DNA of 64,000 bases from assembly GCF_003667275.1 (NCBI RefSeq), contig NZ_RCNV01000004.1, positions 124,001 to 188,000 of the forward strand, read 5' to 3'. A program made the position numbers and the translations under genes. This document shows, in pieces, positions 5,224 through 31,202 of the stretch. Every line of letters begins with the position of its first letter. Positions within the stretch are counted from its first letter, which is position 1. Source of the DNA: Mesonia aquimarina. Lineage in GTDB: Bacteria; Bacteroidota; Bacteroidia; Flavobacteriales; Flavobacteriaceae. Below the pieces are notes generated by a model that had not been told where the DNA came from, made no database searches, and saw only the letters and a list, made by a program, of their open reading frames with translations.

Positions 5224-7653
5224 ATGAAAGTTTCATACAACTGGATAAAACAATTTATTAAAACCGATTGGAATGCCGAAAAAACCGGAAAACTCTTAAC
5301 CGACCTTGGTTTGGAGGTTGAAGGAATCGATAAATTTGAGTCGGTAAAAGGTGGCTTAGAAGGTATTGTGGTAGGTCACGTGCTTACCTGCGAAAAACAC
5401 GAAAATGCCGACCGGTTAAAAGTTACCACGGTAGAAATTGGTGAAGATGAACCGGTGCAAATTGTATGTGGAGCGCCAAATGTAGAAGTTGGTCAAAATG
5501 TGCCCGTAGCCACTGTTGGCACAACTTTATATACTGAAGCCGGCGAAGCTTGGAAAATTAAAATGGGTAAAATTCGTGGTGAAGTAAGCCATGGGATGAT
5601 TTGTGCCGAAGATGAATTAGGTCTAGGAAAAAGCCACGACGGCATTATGGTTCTTGATGAAAAACTTACTCCGGGAACACCCTTAAAAAAAGTTTTTGAT
5701 GTTGAAACCGATAATATTTTTGAAATTGGCTTAACACCAAACAGAGCTGATGCGATGAGTCATTACGGCGTAGCTCGCGATTTAAAAGCAGGCTTTATTC
5801 AGCAAGAAATAAATACCGCTTTAGATTCTCCTTCGGTTAGTAATTTTCATGTAGAAAACAGAAGCAAAAGAATTTTAATAGAAGTTGAAGATTACGATTT
5901 AGCACCGCGTTATTGCGGAGTTACACTTTCTGAAATAAAAGTTGGTCCTTCTCCTAAATGGTTACAAAACCGATTAAAAGCAATTGGCCTAACTCCTAAA
6001 AATAATGTAGTTGATGTCACAAATTACGTGATGCACGAGTTAGGACAACCGCTACACGCCTTTGACGCTGACCAAATTTCCGGGAATAAAATAAAAGTTC
6101 AGCGTGCTAAAGCTGGTACAAAATTTACAACCTTAGATGAAGTTGAACGCAAATTGCACGAAGATGATTTAATGATTTGCGATGCCGAAAAACCGCTTTG
6201 TATTGCCGGTGTTTTTGGTGGACTAGATTCTGGAGTTACTGAAAAAACGAGTAGCATTTTTCTAGAAAGTGCCTATTTTAATCCGGTAAGCGTTCGTAAA
6301 ACTGCTAAACGTCACGGACTTAATACCGATGCGTCTTTTAGGTTTGAACGCGGAATTGACCCTAACATTACAAAATATGCCTTGCGAAGAGCTGCATTAT
6401 TAATTCAGCAAACTGGTGGTGGTTATGTTTCTAGTGATATTGATGATGTGTACCCAAAGAAAATTGAAGATTTCCAGGTATTTTTAACTTTTGATAAAAT
6501 CAACAAATTAATCGGGCAAGAAATTGAAAGTGAAACCATTAAATCTATTCTAGCTTCACTGGAAATTCGTGTCAATAATGTAACTGAAAGTGGTTTAGGC
6601 TTAACTATTCCCGCATACCGAGTTGATGTGCAACGTGAAGTTGATGTAATTGAAGAAATTCTTCGTGTTTATGGTTATAACAATATTGAATTTAATGAGA
6701 AACTAAACGCATCCATTTCAAATTCAACTCGATTTGAAGATTATAAACTTCAGAATATTATTGCTAATCAATTGGTTGGACAAGGATTTTACGAGATGAT
6801 GGCCAACTCATTAACCAGTAAAGAATACGCAGATTTATCTGAAGATCTAAAAGCAGAACACAATATAGAAATGCTAAATCCGCTGAGTCAAGATTTATCA
6901 GCAATGCGCCAATCTTTATTATTTAGCGGTTTAGAAGCTGTCGCTTATAATTTGAATCGGAAAAATGAAAATTTAAAGTTTTTTGAATTTGGAAAAAGCT
7001 ATCATAATTTTCCCGGTTCCGGAAGAACAGAACAAAAGCATTTAAGTCTTTTAATAAGCGGAAACAGAACACAAGAACGTTGGAACAGCGCTCCTAAAAA
7101 AAGTGATTTCTTCTATGCAAAGGGAATAATCACTGCTGTTTTAGAACGTTTAGGAATTACAGATTTTGATTTTAAACCTTTAACTTCTACTAATTTTTCT
7201 GAAGGTGTAGCATTGCACTACAAGAAAAATAAATTAGTAGAATTTGGTGTAATTAAAAAATCGATTTTGAAAAAATTTGCAATAGACCAAGAAGTGCTTT
7301 TTGCAGATTTTGATTGGAGTAAAGTAATAGAATTTGTAAAAAAACAACAAACTAGTTTTACGGCTATTTCTAAGTTTCCGTCAGTGAGGAGAGATTTTGC
7401 CTTATTGTTAGATGATTCGGTGAGCTTTCAAGATATTTATGACATCGCTGTAAAAACTGAGAAGAAAATTTTAAAACAAGTAGAACTTTTTGATGTTTAT
7501 GAAGGAAAAAATCTTCCGGATGGTAAAAAAAGTTATGCAGTAAGTTTTACTTTTCTGGATGAAAAGAAAACCTTAACCGATAAGCAAGTTGATAAGGTGA
7601 TGAATAAACTTCAAACACAATTTGAAAAACAACTAAACGCATCCCTTCGATAA
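5224..7653 (+). CDS. pheT: Phenylalanine-tRNA ligase beta subunit
   Basis: An 809-residue protein of standard length for the PheT chain of the alpha2-beta2 phenylalanyl-tRNA synthetase. The EMAP/OB tRNA-binding domain lies at about residues 40-155 (VVGHVLTCEKHENADRLKV, then GMICAEDELGLG). The B3/B4 editing region follows (NNVVDVTNYVMHELGQPLHA, residues ~260-280), then B5 and the synthetase-like core. The FDX-ACB anticodon-binding domain ends the protein (SKFPSVRRDFALLLDD from ~residue 717). The partner pheS is not next to it, as is common in this phylum. The stop is followed seven bases later by an inverted-repeat element that probably ends the transcript. Confidence 0.97.
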   Translation: MKVSYNWIKQFIKTDWNAEKTGKLLTDLGLEVEGIDKFESVKGGLEGIVVGHVLTCEKHENADRLKVTTVEIGEDEPVQIVCGAPNVEVGQNVPVATVGTTLYTEAGEAWKIKMGKIRGEVSHGMICAEDELGLGKSHDGIMVLDEKLTPGTPLKKVFDVETDNIFEIGLTPNRADAMSHYGVARDLKAGFIQQEINTALDSPSVSNFHVENRSKRILIEVEDYDLAPRYCGVTLSEIKVGPSPKWLQNRLKAIGLTPKNNVVDVTNYVMHELGQPLHAFDADQISGNKIKVQRAKAGTKFTTLDEVERKLHEDDLMICDAEKPLCIAGVFGGLDSGVTEKTSSIFLESAYFNPVSVRKTAKRHGLNTDASFRFERGIDPNITKYALRRAALLIQQTGGGYVSSDIDDVYPKKIEDFQVFLTFDKINKLIGQEIESETIKSILASLEIRVNNVTESGLGLTIPAYRVDVQREVDVIEEILRVYGYNNIEFNEKLNASISNSTRFEDYKLQNIIANQLVGQGFYEMMANSLTSKEYADLSEDLKAEHNIEMLNPLSQDLSAMRQSLLFSGLEAVAYNLNRKNENLKFFEFGKSYHNFPGSGRTEQKHLSLLISGNRTQERWNSAPKKSDFFYAKGIITAVLERLGITDFDFKPLTSTNFSEGVALHYKKNKLVEFGVIKKSILKKFAIDQEVLFADFDWSKVIEFVKKQQTSFTAISKFPSVRRDFALLLDDSVSFQDIYDIAVKTEKKILKQVELFDVYEGKNLPDGKKSYAVSFTFLDEKKTLTDKQVDKVMNKLQTQFEKQLNASLR

Positions 7654-7660
7654 AAAATTA

Positions 7661-7796
7661 AAGAGGCTGTCTAAAAAGAATAAAAAAAATGTCATTCTGA
7701 ATTTATTTCAGAATCTCATCTTTCTGAATTACAATTAAATATGAGAACCTGAATCAAGTTCAGGTTGACAAAAGTAGACTTTTTAGACAGCCTCTT
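7661..7796. repeat. 136-bp element with 18-bp perfect inverted ends (copy 1)
   Basis: The element is bounded by AAGAGGCTGTCTAAAAAG (7661-7678) and its exact reverse complement (7779-7796), then a T run. Inside are two shorter palindromes: TTCTGAA/TTCAGAA (7695-7701 and 7707-7713) and AACCTGAA/TTCAGGTT (7746-7753 and 7759-7766). A second, closely similar copy lies at 29987-30121. It begins 7 bp after the pheT stop and contains no open frame. It could act as a transcription terminator on either strand, or be a non-autonomous mobile repeat. Confidence 0.9.
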
Positions 7797-7844
7797 TTTT
7801 TATGCCTAAAATTCCTATTTTTAGAAAAGTAACAATCAATTTTT

Positions 7845-8294
7845 ATGGAAATTAATAAAGAATTCATTATTAAAATGGCAGAAAACTTAATTCCGCTTCA
7901 TCAGTTTTTAGGTCTTAAAGTTTTATCTTTAGAAAGCGGTTATGCAAAAGTAAGAGTTCCTTTTAAAAAAGAAGTTGTTGGCGATGTTAGAAATAATCGC
8001 TGGCACGGTGGGATAATCGCAACAATAATGGATTCAGTTGGAGGAATTGTGGGAAGCACTTACGGCTCTTCTACCAAAGATAAAATGGCAACAATAGATT
8101 TGCGTGTAGATTATTTAAAAGCTGCTCAAGACTCTGCCTTAATTGTTGAAGGAGAACTGGTGCGCTTAGGAAACAGAATAATGGTAGTAAGAATGCGTGC
8201 ATTTTCTGAAAATGATGAAAACAACTTGATTGCTGAAGGAAAAGGCGTTTATAATTTTATTAGAATGCAAAAAAAAAAGCGACCAATAAATTGA
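7845..8294 (+). CDS. Hotdog-fold thioesterase (PaaI/YbgC-like)
   Basis: A 149-residue hotdog-fold protein. The family signature reads HGGIIATIMDSVGG from about residue 54, in which the Asp acts as the catalytic acid/base of PaaI-type acyl-CoA thioesterases, and the strand pattern MATIDLRVDYLKAA matches the long beta strand after it. It should hydrolyse an acyl- or aryl-CoA, but the substrate cannot be read from the sequence. It is a single gene between the repeat element and a convergent fasciclin gene. Its TGA stop (8292-8294) lies in the loop of its own terminator hairpin, so the last codons (KKKRPIN) also encode the stem. Confidence 0.88.
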   Translation: MEINKEFIIKMAENLIPLHQFLGLKVLSLESGYAKVRVPFKKEVVGDVRNNRWHGGIIATIMDSVGGIVGSTYGSSTKDKMATIDLRVDYLKAAQDSALIVEGELVRLGNRIMVVRMRAFSENDENNLIAEGKGVYNFIRMQKKKRPIN

Positions 8295-28572: not shown

Positions 28573-29970
28573 ATGTCATATCGTATAGAAAAAGATACTA
28601 TGGGCGAGGTAAAAGTACCTGCCGATAAACTTTGGGGAGCACAAACTGAACGCTCTCGTAATAATTTTAAAATAGGACCTGCAGGATCTATGCCATTAGA
28701 AATTGTGTATGGTTTTGCTTATTTAAAAAAAGCCGCTGCTTATACAAATGAAGCTGCTGGCGTTCTACCTACAGAAAAAAGAGATCTTATTGCTAAGGTT
28801 TGTGATGAAATTTTAGAAGGAAAACATGACGATCAATTTCCGTTGGTAATTTGGCAAACCGGATCTGGTACACAAAGTAATATGAATGTGAATGAAGTAA
28901 TTGCAAATAGAGCTCACCAATTAGCAGGAAAAACAATTGGTGAAGGTGAAAAAAGTTTACTTCCTAATGATGATGTAAATAAATCTCAATCTTCTAACGA
29001 TACTTTTCCTACAGGAATGCATATTGCAACCTATAAAAAAGTAGTAGAAACTACCATTCCTGGAGTGAAACAATTACGTAATACACTTCAGAAAAAAGCA
29101 GAAGAATTTAAAAAAGTAGTGAAAATTGGACGTACACATTTTATGGATGCTACTCCCCTAACTTTAGGGCAAGAATTTAGTGGTTATGTTTCTCAATTAG
29201 ATCACGGCTTAAAAGCATTAGAAGCCACTTTACCTCATTTAGCTGAATTGGCTTTAGGAGGAACCGCAGTAGGAACAGGTTTAAATACCCCAAAAAATTA
29301 TGCCAATGATGTAGCAAAATATATTGCTGATTTTACTGAACTTCCTTTTACTTCTGCTGAAAATAAATTTGAAGCTCTAGCTGCACACGATGCTTTAGTG
29401 GAAACACACGGAGCTTTAAAACAGTTGGCGGTTTCATTGAATAAAATAGGAAACGATATTAGAATGTTAGCATCGGGACCTCGAAGTGGAATTGGAGAAA
29501 TTATTATCCCGGCAAACGAACCAGGTTCTTCTATTATGCCAGGAAAAGTAAATCCTACGCAATGTGAAGCTTTAACCATGGTTTGCGCACAAGTTATTGG
29601 TAACGATGTTGCGATGAGCGTTGGTGGTATGCAAGGACAATTTGAATTAAATGTATTTAAACCAGTTATGGCAGCCAACTTATTACAAAGCGCTCAATTA
29701 CTTGGTGATGCTTGTGTTTCTTTTGAGGAGCATTGCGCAAATGGAATTGAGCCTAATCAAGAACGAATTGATGAGTTGCTTAAAAATAGCTTGATGCTAG
29801 TTACTGCTTTAAACACTAAAATAGGTTATTATAAAGCAGCAGAAATTGCAACAACAGCACATAAAAACGGAACTACACTAAAAGAGGAAGCTGTTAATTT
29901 AGGATACACTACAGCAGAAGAATTTGATGAGTGGGTAAAACCTGAAGATATGGTTGGAGAAATAAAATAA
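28573..29970 (+). CDS. fumC: Class II fumarate hydratase
   Basis: A 465-residue iron-independent fumarase, normal length, that interconverts fumarate and malate in the citric acid cycle. The N-terminus [14 protein letters not shown] and the [15 protein letters not shown] segment are fumarase II signatures, and the family signature [15 protein letters not shown] lies near residue 318. The catalytic His is in the [17 protein letters not shown] region near 195. It belongs to the fumarase/aspartase/adenylosuccinate-lyase superfamily; aspartase and fumarase differ only in few positions, but the overall match is to fumarase. The stop is followed after 16 bp by copy 2 of the repeat element. Confidence 0.96.
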
Positions 29971-29986
29971 ATATTATCTAAATTAA

Positions 29987-30121
29987 AAGAGGCTGTCTAA
30001 AAAGATTATAAAAGGGTCATTCTGAATTTATTTCAGAATCTCATATTACTGAAATACAAATCAATATAAGAACCTGAATCAAGTTCAGGTTGACAAAAGT
30101 AGACTTTTTAGACAGCTTTTT
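29987..30121. repeat. Inverted-repeat element (copy 2)
   Basis: The left end AAGAGGCTGTCTAAAAAG (29987-30004) is identical to copy 1 at 7661. The right arm CTTTTTAGACAGC (30104-30116) is intact for 13 bases, and then CTCTT is replaced by a T run. The internal palindromes TTCTGAA/TTCAGAA and AACCTGAA/TTCAGGTT are conserved. It lies between the convergent fumC and histidine-kinase genes, so it may end both transcripts. Confidence 0.9.
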
Positions 30122-30122
30122 T

Positions 30123-31202
30123 TTATGCTTTAAAATTTAATGTAAACGTCGTTCCTACATTTACTCTACTTTCTACTTGAACGCTTCCACCCAAAGTTTC
30201 TATCAGGTTTTTTACCAAATATAAACCTATACCTCTACTCTCATGGTTTGAAGTAAATTTTTGATGTAAACTAAAAATTTTATCTCCTATTTTTTTCATA
30301 TCAAAACCTATTCCGTTATCAGAAAAAATAAGTTGAGGGATGTTATTAATTTTACGAGACTTAATAGAAATGATTAGTCTACGATTGTTGCTAGAGTATT
30401 TTAAGGAATTAGAAATTAAATTTAATAATATGCTTTGAAGAAAAAACTCATTAGATGTAAGATGCGTTAATTCAGAAAAATCTACTTCAAATTTTGCATT
30501 AGATAAATTCACTAACTCATTTATTGAATTTTTCACATTAGAAAAAACGTCTTCTAAATATATTTTTTCAACAGACTCATTTATCTTTTTATCATTACTA
30601 ACCGCATCAACATATTTATTGAGCGTATTATTCATCTCTAAATTAGCGTCATTTAAAAGTGCAACATACTTTCTCGTTTCCGAATCTTCAATTTTTGAAA
30701 GATCTAATAAACTGAATAAAGAAATTACATTACTTACTGGTGATCTTAAATCATGAGAAATCATATAAGTAAATTTCTTAAGATCTGCATTAGATTTTGC
30801 AAGCTTCAATAAAAGTGAATTTCGCTCCTCTTCTAATTTTTTTATATGAGTAATATTTTTAGCAACCGCATAAATTAAATCATTTTCTTCCTCAGAAATT
30901 GAAGTCCAAGAAAGCCAAACAATATCTCCATTTTTAGTGATGTATCGGTTTTCTAAATTTAGAAGTGGAACCTTATTCTTTAGGCTATTTCTGAATTCTG
31001 AGGTTTTTTTTTTATCTTCTTCATAAATCAAGTTATTTATGGGAATTTTTAATAACTCATCTATACTGTAACCAAGAAGATTAGAAAAAGCGGGATTTAC
31101 TTTTTTTAAATAGCCATCATAACCCGCAATACAGAGAATGTCTGGAGTTAAATTAAAAAAACGTTCTAGATTAAATTCGCCTTCTTTAGTTGGATTGAGC
31201 AT
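30123..31202 (-). CDS. PAS-domain sensor histidine kinase
   Basis: A 359-residue kinase without membrane helices. A PAS domain occupies about residues 10-125 (ILCIAGYDGYLKKVNPAFSN, then PAC-like IVWLSWTSI). A short coiled-coil follows, then the H box MISHDLRSPV with H150. The ATPase part has the N box (LLNLISNSLKYSS), G1 (DNGIGFD) and G2 (ESRGIGLYLVKNL). It probably senses a cytoplasmic cue, but there is no response regulator next to it. It lies 7 bp downstream of the ResB/CcsA gene in the same direction, so they may be co-transcribed, though a functional link with cytochrome assembly is only inferred. Confidence 0.92.
   Translation of the reverse strand: MLNPTKEGEFNLERFFNLTPDILCIAGYDGYLKKVNPAFSNLLGYSIDELLKIPINNLIYEEDKKKTSEFRNSLKNKVPLLNLENRYITKNGDIVWLSWTSISEEENDLIYAVAKNITHIKKLEEERNSLLLKLAKSNADLKKFTYMISHDLRSPVSNVISLFSLLDLSKIEDSETRKYVALLNDANLEMNNTLNKYVDAVSNDKKINESVEKIYLEDVFSNVKNSINELVNLSNAKFEVDFSELTHLTSNEFFLQSILLNLISNSLKYSSNNRRLIISIKSRKINNIPQLIFSDNGIGFDMKKIGDKIFSLHQKFTSNHESRGIGLYLVKNLIETLGGSVQVESRVNVGTTFTLNFKA

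Follow-up and report, generated by a model that had tools for sequence, protein, structure and literature searches.

In the window (the whole 64-kb stretch of DNA analysed here), pheT is followed immediately by a 136-bp palindromic repeat, of which a second copy lies behind a lyase gene. The question raised by this locus is whether such a repeat is a terminator, a mobile element or both, and what could have moved it. The sequence-only reading had suggested either a MITE or a REP/BIME-type repeat, and each guess proved apt for one part: outside, the element has the behaviour of a MITE, and inside it holds a pair of REP type. The analyses described below favour, with a probability of about 0.8, a non-autonomous MITE with IS1182-type ends, which would replace a terminator hairpin with its own two-way terminator.

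Architecture of the element and its copies in the host genome

The coordinates of both copies and of the adjoining genes are presented in Table 1. The arms of copy 1 form the perfect inverted repeat of 18 bp that had been noticed from the letters (19 bp if A7660 and T7797 are counted), and the 64-kb window contains four matches to the arm when up to 3 mismatches are allowed, against 0.09 expected from shuffled sequences. The two inner palindromes and the equal internal order of the second copy were likewise borne out. In both copies the palindromes share one unit type (tag-stem-loop-TCTCAT) and stand in inverse orientation to each other, with the GTC-containing tag directed outward and the CTCAT tail inward; GGTC precedes REP unit A in copy 2. 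No ORF of at least 80 aa overlaps either copy, which agrees with the non-coding nature assigned to the element, and the upstream gene, named as pheT in advance, is pheT by its domains. Folded as a single strand, each copy forms one long hairpin; for copy 1 the energy is -56.3 kcal/mol (z -9.7 for the plus and -9.0 for the minus strand), and copy 2 has z -7.5 against shuffles. The Rfam scan of positions 7500-8000 showed no match near the gathering score.

Table 1. Positions of the two copies, their parts and the neighbouring genes in the window.
Feature	Position	Strand	Remarks
Whole element, copy 1	7661..7796	- (= alignment A1 orientation)	159.9 bits against model R1, built from 14 copies, copy 1 among them
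Copy 1 left arm, terminal inverted repeat	7661..7678	+	
Copy 1 right arm, terminal inverted repeat	7779..7796	-	
Copy 1 REP unit A	7690..7719	+	TGTC tag, stem ATTCTGAA/TTCAGAAT, tail CTCAT; family described in the available part of PMC3733652
Copy 1 REP unit B	7741..7770	-	TGTC tag, stem AACCTGAA/TTCAGGTT, inverted relative to unit A
T run 3' of the outer stem, copy 1	7795..7801	+	read as the putative terminator U-tract of pheT
Whole element, copy 2	29987..30121	-	135 bp, 158 bits
Copy 2 left arm, terminal inverted repeat	29987..30004	+	
Copy 2 right arm, terminal inverted repeat	30104..30121	-	2 mismatches
Copy 2 REP unit A	30016..30044	+	
Copy 2 REP unit B	30066..30095	-	
pheT	5224..7653	+	identity by domains; presumed to end at copy 1
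Aspartase/fumarase-type lyase gene	28573..29970	+	presumed to end at copy 2
PAS/histidine kinase gene	30123..31202	-	convergent, 3' end against copy 2

The search of the host genome (3.28 Mb in 25 contigs) showed 18 exact matches of the 15-base core of the end and none of the reversed control. The covariance model based on 14 copies gave at least 67 matches, counted on both strands. These correspond to at least 40 loci, 26 of them strong (>90 bits) and 14 weaker (E up to 0.001), and the locus counts are lower bounds because 150 of 5007 candidates were scored. The genome-wide count proposed with the sequence-only reading thus gives 26 strong copies, not merely two. Their alignment revealed one unit of the TTCTGAA type and one of the ACCTGAA type, with variants. 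The element has a near-fixed size of about 131 bp between the GAGG and CCTC ends. A short (about 135 bp), non-coding repeat with 18-bp arms and 26 strong copies corresponds to what is called a MITE, for which terminal inverted repeats of 15-30 bp are typical. Some copies carry an extra palindrome, e.g., TTCCGATAGTTATCGGAA, nested in the loop of an inner REP hairpin (L060, L062, L072 and L078 in the host, L135 and L137 in G007), and consist of three hairpins, each within another.

Gene ends and terminator-like properties

The expectation that copies lie just after stop codons was confirmed for the host, where a stop codon is present within 39 nt of all 26 strong copies according to simple ORF calls. 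Fifteen of these copies are situated between convergent and 11 between tandem genes, none lies between divergent genes, and a divergent position was observed for one of the 14 weaker loci. The same analysis was performed on named genomes. A scan of a genome collection for exact 16-base arms with a total length of 117-144 bp retrieved 81 elements in 80 loci, 78 of which were placed between genes: 48 convergent, 30 tandem and 0 divergent. The remaining gaps of 100 bp or more in these loci, used as a control, comprised 10 convergent, 107 tandem and 59 divergent ones (Fisher test, 2e-21 for convergent and 1e-11 for divergent pairs; copies from the same genome are not independent). A stop codon lies within 77 nt of 76 of the 78 placed elements, with an overlap of up to 19 nt in three cases, and is 310 and 335 nt away from the other two. 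Simple scripts that take the longest frame supplied the ORFs, with a minimum of 50 aa for the host copies and 90 aa for the named genomes, and individual genes may be misassigned for that reason.

The flanks of the elements are A-rich upstream and T-rich downstream, which is the pattern that a two-way terminator would need. In copy 1, both the sequence and the fold show a G+C-bearing stem followed by a U run, as in an intrinsic terminator, and the element is predicted to end transcription. The outer stem, whose loop of about 100 nt is too long, is missed by a simple terminator scan, which allows loops of 3-8.

The outer stem was compared over its 18 pairs in the 26 strong host copies. Standard pairs make up 92.9%, and 19 double-changed cells occur in 10 of the 18 pairs, a number reached by none of 500 shuffles and by slid versions only up to 5. 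Moreover, 420 of 467 pairs are Watson-Crick pairs, compared with 389 (sd 4.2) with swapped partners. One reading of this covariation is that selection may have maintained the hairpin; in others, one arm would have corrected the other during replication, or variant copies would have descended from each other.

It could also be supposed that the element is a MITE which occupies 3' ends through its choice of target or through purifying selection, with no terminator role at all. Selection would leave insertions away from promoters, and an outer stem that encloses about 100 nt also suits this explanation, which we nevertheless regard as unlikely. The A-rich flanks before and T-rich flanks behind the element argue against it, and so do the double changes that keep the stem pairs, though arm-by-arm conversion could keep them too. 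It is opposed further by the hairpin exchange described in the next section.

Three orthologous site pairs were available among the named loci. In Kordia (L186/L213) the cores are 88.9% identical only if one is inverted, with flanks identical at 95.7%, and in Gramella/Christiangramia (L238/L243) the core is 90.5% identical if inverted, with flanks at 82.3%. The Winogradskyella pair (L205/L212) has the same orientation and an identity of 99.0%. In-place inversion of the core would follow from arm-to-arm recombination as well as from an exchange for a sister copy.

Distribution, probable recent movement and exchange of hairpins

Many of the 81 elements come from genomes named as Flavobacteriaceae; further genera carrying matches are ones that we take to be Flavobacteriaceae, and with these the family covers most matches. 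Others were found in Prevotellaceae, Prolixibacteraceae, Marinilabiliaceae, Saprospiraceae, Sphingobacteriales, Bacteroidales and other Bacteroidia. Outside Bacteroidota, one Chlorobiota MAG and one Sulfurovum MAG gave matches, which may be binning errors. The length distribution has its peak at 131 bp (41 of 81 elements, with 65 of 81 at 130-132 bp), and the arm and length counts are conditioned by the search pattern, which demanded both. Despite this steady length, the hairpins inside the arms belong to different sequence types in different species. When G063 was inspected by eye with no length limit and ends of at most 1 mismatch, 14 of 21 pairs measured 131 bp, and the remaining ones were one of 126, two of 132, three of 133 and one of 57 bp; unpaired ends were present too. 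The search with the host model in the host and 59 relatives gave a match in 20 relatives, some of these matches being REP pairs in another envelope. A copy of Mesonia algae (L231) and one of G003, a genome of the host's genus, agree when compared by eye, and Mesonia is accordingly the probable genus of the host. Shorter elements with the same arms were also noted: L109 (G021), which has no REP pair, and pairs of 57, 60 and 79 bp.

Signs of movement come from Flavivirga rizhaonensis (G060), in which 41 distinct elements were collected, mainly as BLAST matches to two elements in L179. Exactly 131 bp was found in 35 of the 41, and the 35 fall into a group of 27 (at least 96.9% identity to the first member) and a group of 8 (at least 98.5%). 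This identity extends over all 131 bp, the arms and spacers among them. We infer from these two near-identical groups that the element has moved and spread recently, and since the arms and spacers are repeated along with the core, the moving unit would be the whole element, not the REP pair alone.

These data have to be weighed against the idea of an ordinary terminator that became large and alike by convergence or gene conversion, without transposition. Such an origin would be in keeping with an occupied terminator slot, with native stems that differ among the relatives at that position and with co-varying arms. It fits poorly with 16-bp arms and a near-constant length throughout Bacteroidota, with near-identical whole units at unrelated sites of one genome and with the existence of IS that have the same ends (see below), and of all the explanations considered we give it the least credence.

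The sites occupied in F. rizhaonensis were compared with 1.6 Mb of the 4.9-Mb genome of F. amylovorans (G065) and with loci of other relatives. Both flanks were located in a relative for 5 of the 41 elements, and a sixth site (the first in L179) was compared by eye from its upstream flank. In the relative, the slot is taken by an ordinary hairpin with a T-run at 4 of the 6 comparable sites (L370, L378 and both in L179), and for three of these both flanks could be aligned. The clearest exchange is that in L378, which reads TCTAAA-element-TTTTTATTATGAAAT, whereas the relative has TCTAAA-AGCTAAAATATCATTTATTTTAGCT-TTTTTTATTATTAAAT. As the relative's hairpin is missing at these four sites, they would otherwise be without a terminator, which speaks against a MITE with no terminator role. 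At the L374 site the relative carries an element of this type that is older and degenerate, and the L392 site, with a left flank that aligns poorly, is ambiguous. Other relatives, inspected by eye at the two L179 sites, have mostly simple hairpins with varied stems, and at one of these sites the neighbour gene differs.

The sites of the window copies were examined in 15 same-genus relatives, which are too distant for the alignment of flanks. None of the 15 has the element within 250 nt downstream of pheT, and a hairpin with a T-run occupies the slot in 12 of them (it is absent in G001, G006 and G012). The slot behind the lyase gene contains a hairpin and T-run in 14 of the 15 relatives, one of them scored weak by the script. 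In G014 (L270) a variant element with its own, mutually matching arms (AGAGGTTGTTTAAATAGTA) lies behind the lyase gene, at the site of window copy 2. Relatives thus have sites free of the element, as would be looked for in a mobile repeat. Beyond what the sequence-only reading had proposed, the element most likely replaces a native terminator hairpin and does not land beside one.

The junctions gave no sign of the target-site duplication that had been suggested as a check, as repeats of at least 3 bp do not exceed chance in any set: 3 against 2.7 by shuffling in the 81 named-genome elements, 0 against 0.09 in 25 host copies and 2 against 0.93 in the 41 F. rizhaonensis elements. The host set comprises 25 of the 26 strong copies, L073 having given no arm pair within the limits of the script. 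The missing duplication is not decisive against a MITE because IS1272 reportedly makes none. The bases flanking the element were also compared with each other. In F. rizhaonensis the mean palindromic run is 3.29 bp, compared with 2.03 for swapped flanks (0 of 1000 shuffles), with single cases of up to 11 bp; in the 81 named-genome elements it is 2.72 against 2.22 (0 of 500), where the excess does not reach beyond base four. The difference is not significant for the 25 host copies (3.08 against 2.87, 88 of 500). Palindromic flanks are read as the base of the old hairpin, which would still be standing.

REP pairs, the candidate mover and related systems

Searched with up to 3 mismatches on both strands, the REP-like pattern matches the host genome 101 times, with a few sites counted double, and the reversed control gave no match. 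Changes in the stems compensate each other, and at least 11 of the REP places listed lie, by eye, outside the 40 element loci. In 59 of the 81 cores GTCA stands on the left and TGAC on the right, against 1.5 expected from shuffled cores, and the reverse arrangement occurs in none. The looser GTC/GAC arrangement was found in 71, compared with 11.2 expected, and ten cores are without even that. The inner part has the structure of a head-to-head CGTC REP dimer, with a C/TGTC tag outside, a stem of 8-9 bp, a loop of 4-5 nt and A-T as the first two pairs, and the window units end in CTCA, not in a CCA tail.

A second, unrelated envelope around a similar REP pair was observed in L105 at about 1481-1630 (G005), L104 (G009), and L121-L127 and L134 (G011), with ends like TTGATTATCCGTTAT and TTGAATGTCCGTAAT. 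Its copies are near-identical by eye across the three relatives, three G011 contigs start inside it, and it looks recently mobile. REP pairs are therefore carried by at least two envelopes.

These results raise the question of whether the REP pair itself is mobile by means of a RAYT tyrosine transposase, as in REPINs, with the arms being the stem of an invaded terminator. That the inner units are REPs, that they are present outside the element loci and that REP pairs occur without the arms would all be expected then. We consider such an origin improbable. The host genome contains no Y1_Tnp (RAYT) gene, as would be needed for REPINs. Y1_Tnp matches were found in 24 of 59 relatives, and the 30 Y1_Tnp loci of relatives contain 3 GTC-tagged hairpin units against 1.5 expected by shuffling, in a scan that, as a control, sees a unit in 25 of the 26 host elements. 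Furthermore, whole 131-bp units of F. rizhaonensis, with arms and spacers, are 97-100% alike, and equal arms surround different REP types across species (exact arms being set by the search).

The preferred reading, a MITE with IS1182-type ends, needs a transposase supplied from elsewhere. The sequence-only reading had placed any host transposase outside the window, and degenerate IS1182-type IS with matching ends are indeed present elsewhere in the genome. The DDE_Tnp_1 search of the host genome gave five matches. One of them, L482, is an IS that measures about 1.69 kb and whose transposase is broken; its ends GAGGTCGTCTAAAAAC and CTTTTTAGACAGCCTC differ from those of the element by 3 mismatches over both ends, and its flanks ATGCAAAA and TTTTGCAT are again a palindrome. 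In L478 related ends, with 4 mismatches in all, lie 1573 bp apart. Its 357-aa ORF matches IS1182 (NF033551) at 5.9e-62 and 210 bits, compared with a curated cut-off of 270, and spans only positions 155-484 of the 488 of the profile, the upstream part being in another frame. The proteins of L478 and L482 are 55-64% identical. A third host IS, L481, has an IS1182 gene above the curated cut-off and shares with two Kordia copies (L484 and L491) the ends CTGTCTCAAAAC, which are related to, but different from, those of the element. The element and the IS have only the terminal 16-18 bp in common. All four ends of the matching IS (L482:1354-1395, and L478) form hairpins of their own, and three of these are strong.

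Of the 12 genomes searched, 7 gave IS1182-type matches; there were none in G061, G063, G067, G003 and G007, all five of which have elements. Among the 30 loci of the IS1182 search, an end with at most 3 mismatches was found in L487 alone, a locus of another Flavivirga, where a single such end has one mismatch and precedes an IS1182-type fragment by 90 bp. F. rizhaonensis contains IS1182-type fragments only, none with such ends, and L479 and L480 have no such ends. No intact IS with exactly matching ends was found in the host and the genomes searched, in which several G011 loci are interrupted by contig ends. Two distant end pairs, 1.9 and 3.7 kb apart, were considered as a longer autonomous partner and judged to be due to chance.

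The transposase acting on the element is presumably of the IS1182 type. We propose that this enzyme, acting in trans, would cut into a terminator hairpin, and that most of the stem-loop would be lost with no target duplication arising. The element would then end up between the old A-tract and the old T-tract, and its arms, together with the retained T-tract, would pair into a large hairpin that could serve as a terminator on both strands. The interior would be a head-to-head CGTC-type REP pair that varies by species.

The individual steps have precedents. According to the available part of PMC4923244, IS1272 of the IS1182 family inserts into hairpins, partly deletes the stem-loop and makes no target duplication; both orientations occur at one target, and 5 of 7 first targets were terminators by RNA-seq. 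The element shares hairpin targeting, stem-loop deletion and the lack of target duplication with IS1272 and TnSha1 as described there. Unlike the staphylococcal, transposase-bearing IS1272/TnSha1 (3022 bp for TnSha1), it is a 131-bp non-coding unit of Bacteroidota with other ends, and it forms a terminator-like hairpin itself (PMC4923244, same part).

CGTC REPs are described in the accessible part of PMC3733652 as head-to-head heterodimers adjoining stop codons, with no transposase known, with some dimers inside longer palindromes and with a CCA tail in most, but not all, of them. The units of the element resemble them in the outward C/TGTC tag, the 8-bp stem starting with two A-T pairs and the 5-nt loop, and the dimers in having two different units each and in lying close to stop codons. 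They differ from that description in the CTCA tail and in the fact that the dimer rides in IS1182-type ends, and that part of PMC3733652 contains no description of such an envelope around CGTC REP dimers. Together, as far as these two sources were available, the IS1272 precedent and the description of CGTC REPs explain most of the present observations.

Inverted REP pairs are also found in REPINs/RAYT and in E. coli BIMEs, the latter being two-way terminators (PMC2965389, in the part available); here, however, the host genome is without a RAYT gene and the mobile unit takes in the outer arms. In its size, end repeats and lack of coding capacity the element is similar to the MITEs NEMIS, RUP and Nezha, which are named in the part of PMC3733652 at hand; the element itself shows no target duplication and exchanges a terminator hairpin. 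The literature search for this repeat, including its end letters GAGGCTGTCT, found nothing, which is a weak negative as most subscription papers lie outside such a search. PMC3677179 and PMC5484467 contain, in the parts available, a primer and a CRISPR-table entry. Each of the pieces is known, and the searchable literature contained no account of their combination, of the phylum-wide spread or of terminator exchange by a non-coding element.

Whether the element is a self-compensating transposon, whose insertion would destroy a terminator that its own body then replaces, is in our view an even bet. If it is, new copies would be nearly cost-free, and terminators would spread through the phylum as mobile parts. 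In that case the near-fixed 131 bp, the swappable REP hairpins and the in-place inversion would suggest that the transposase obeys a rule of size or shape. The finding links CGTC REPs with no known transposase (PMC3733652) to the removal of terminator hairpins by IS1272 (PMC4923244), both as given in the available parts of these papers, and the REP dimers would gain their missing vehicle. If this holds, the evolution of terminators by exchange would become directly testable, and a small transposon would be rewriting the 3' ends of the genes of a phylum while replacing what is lost.
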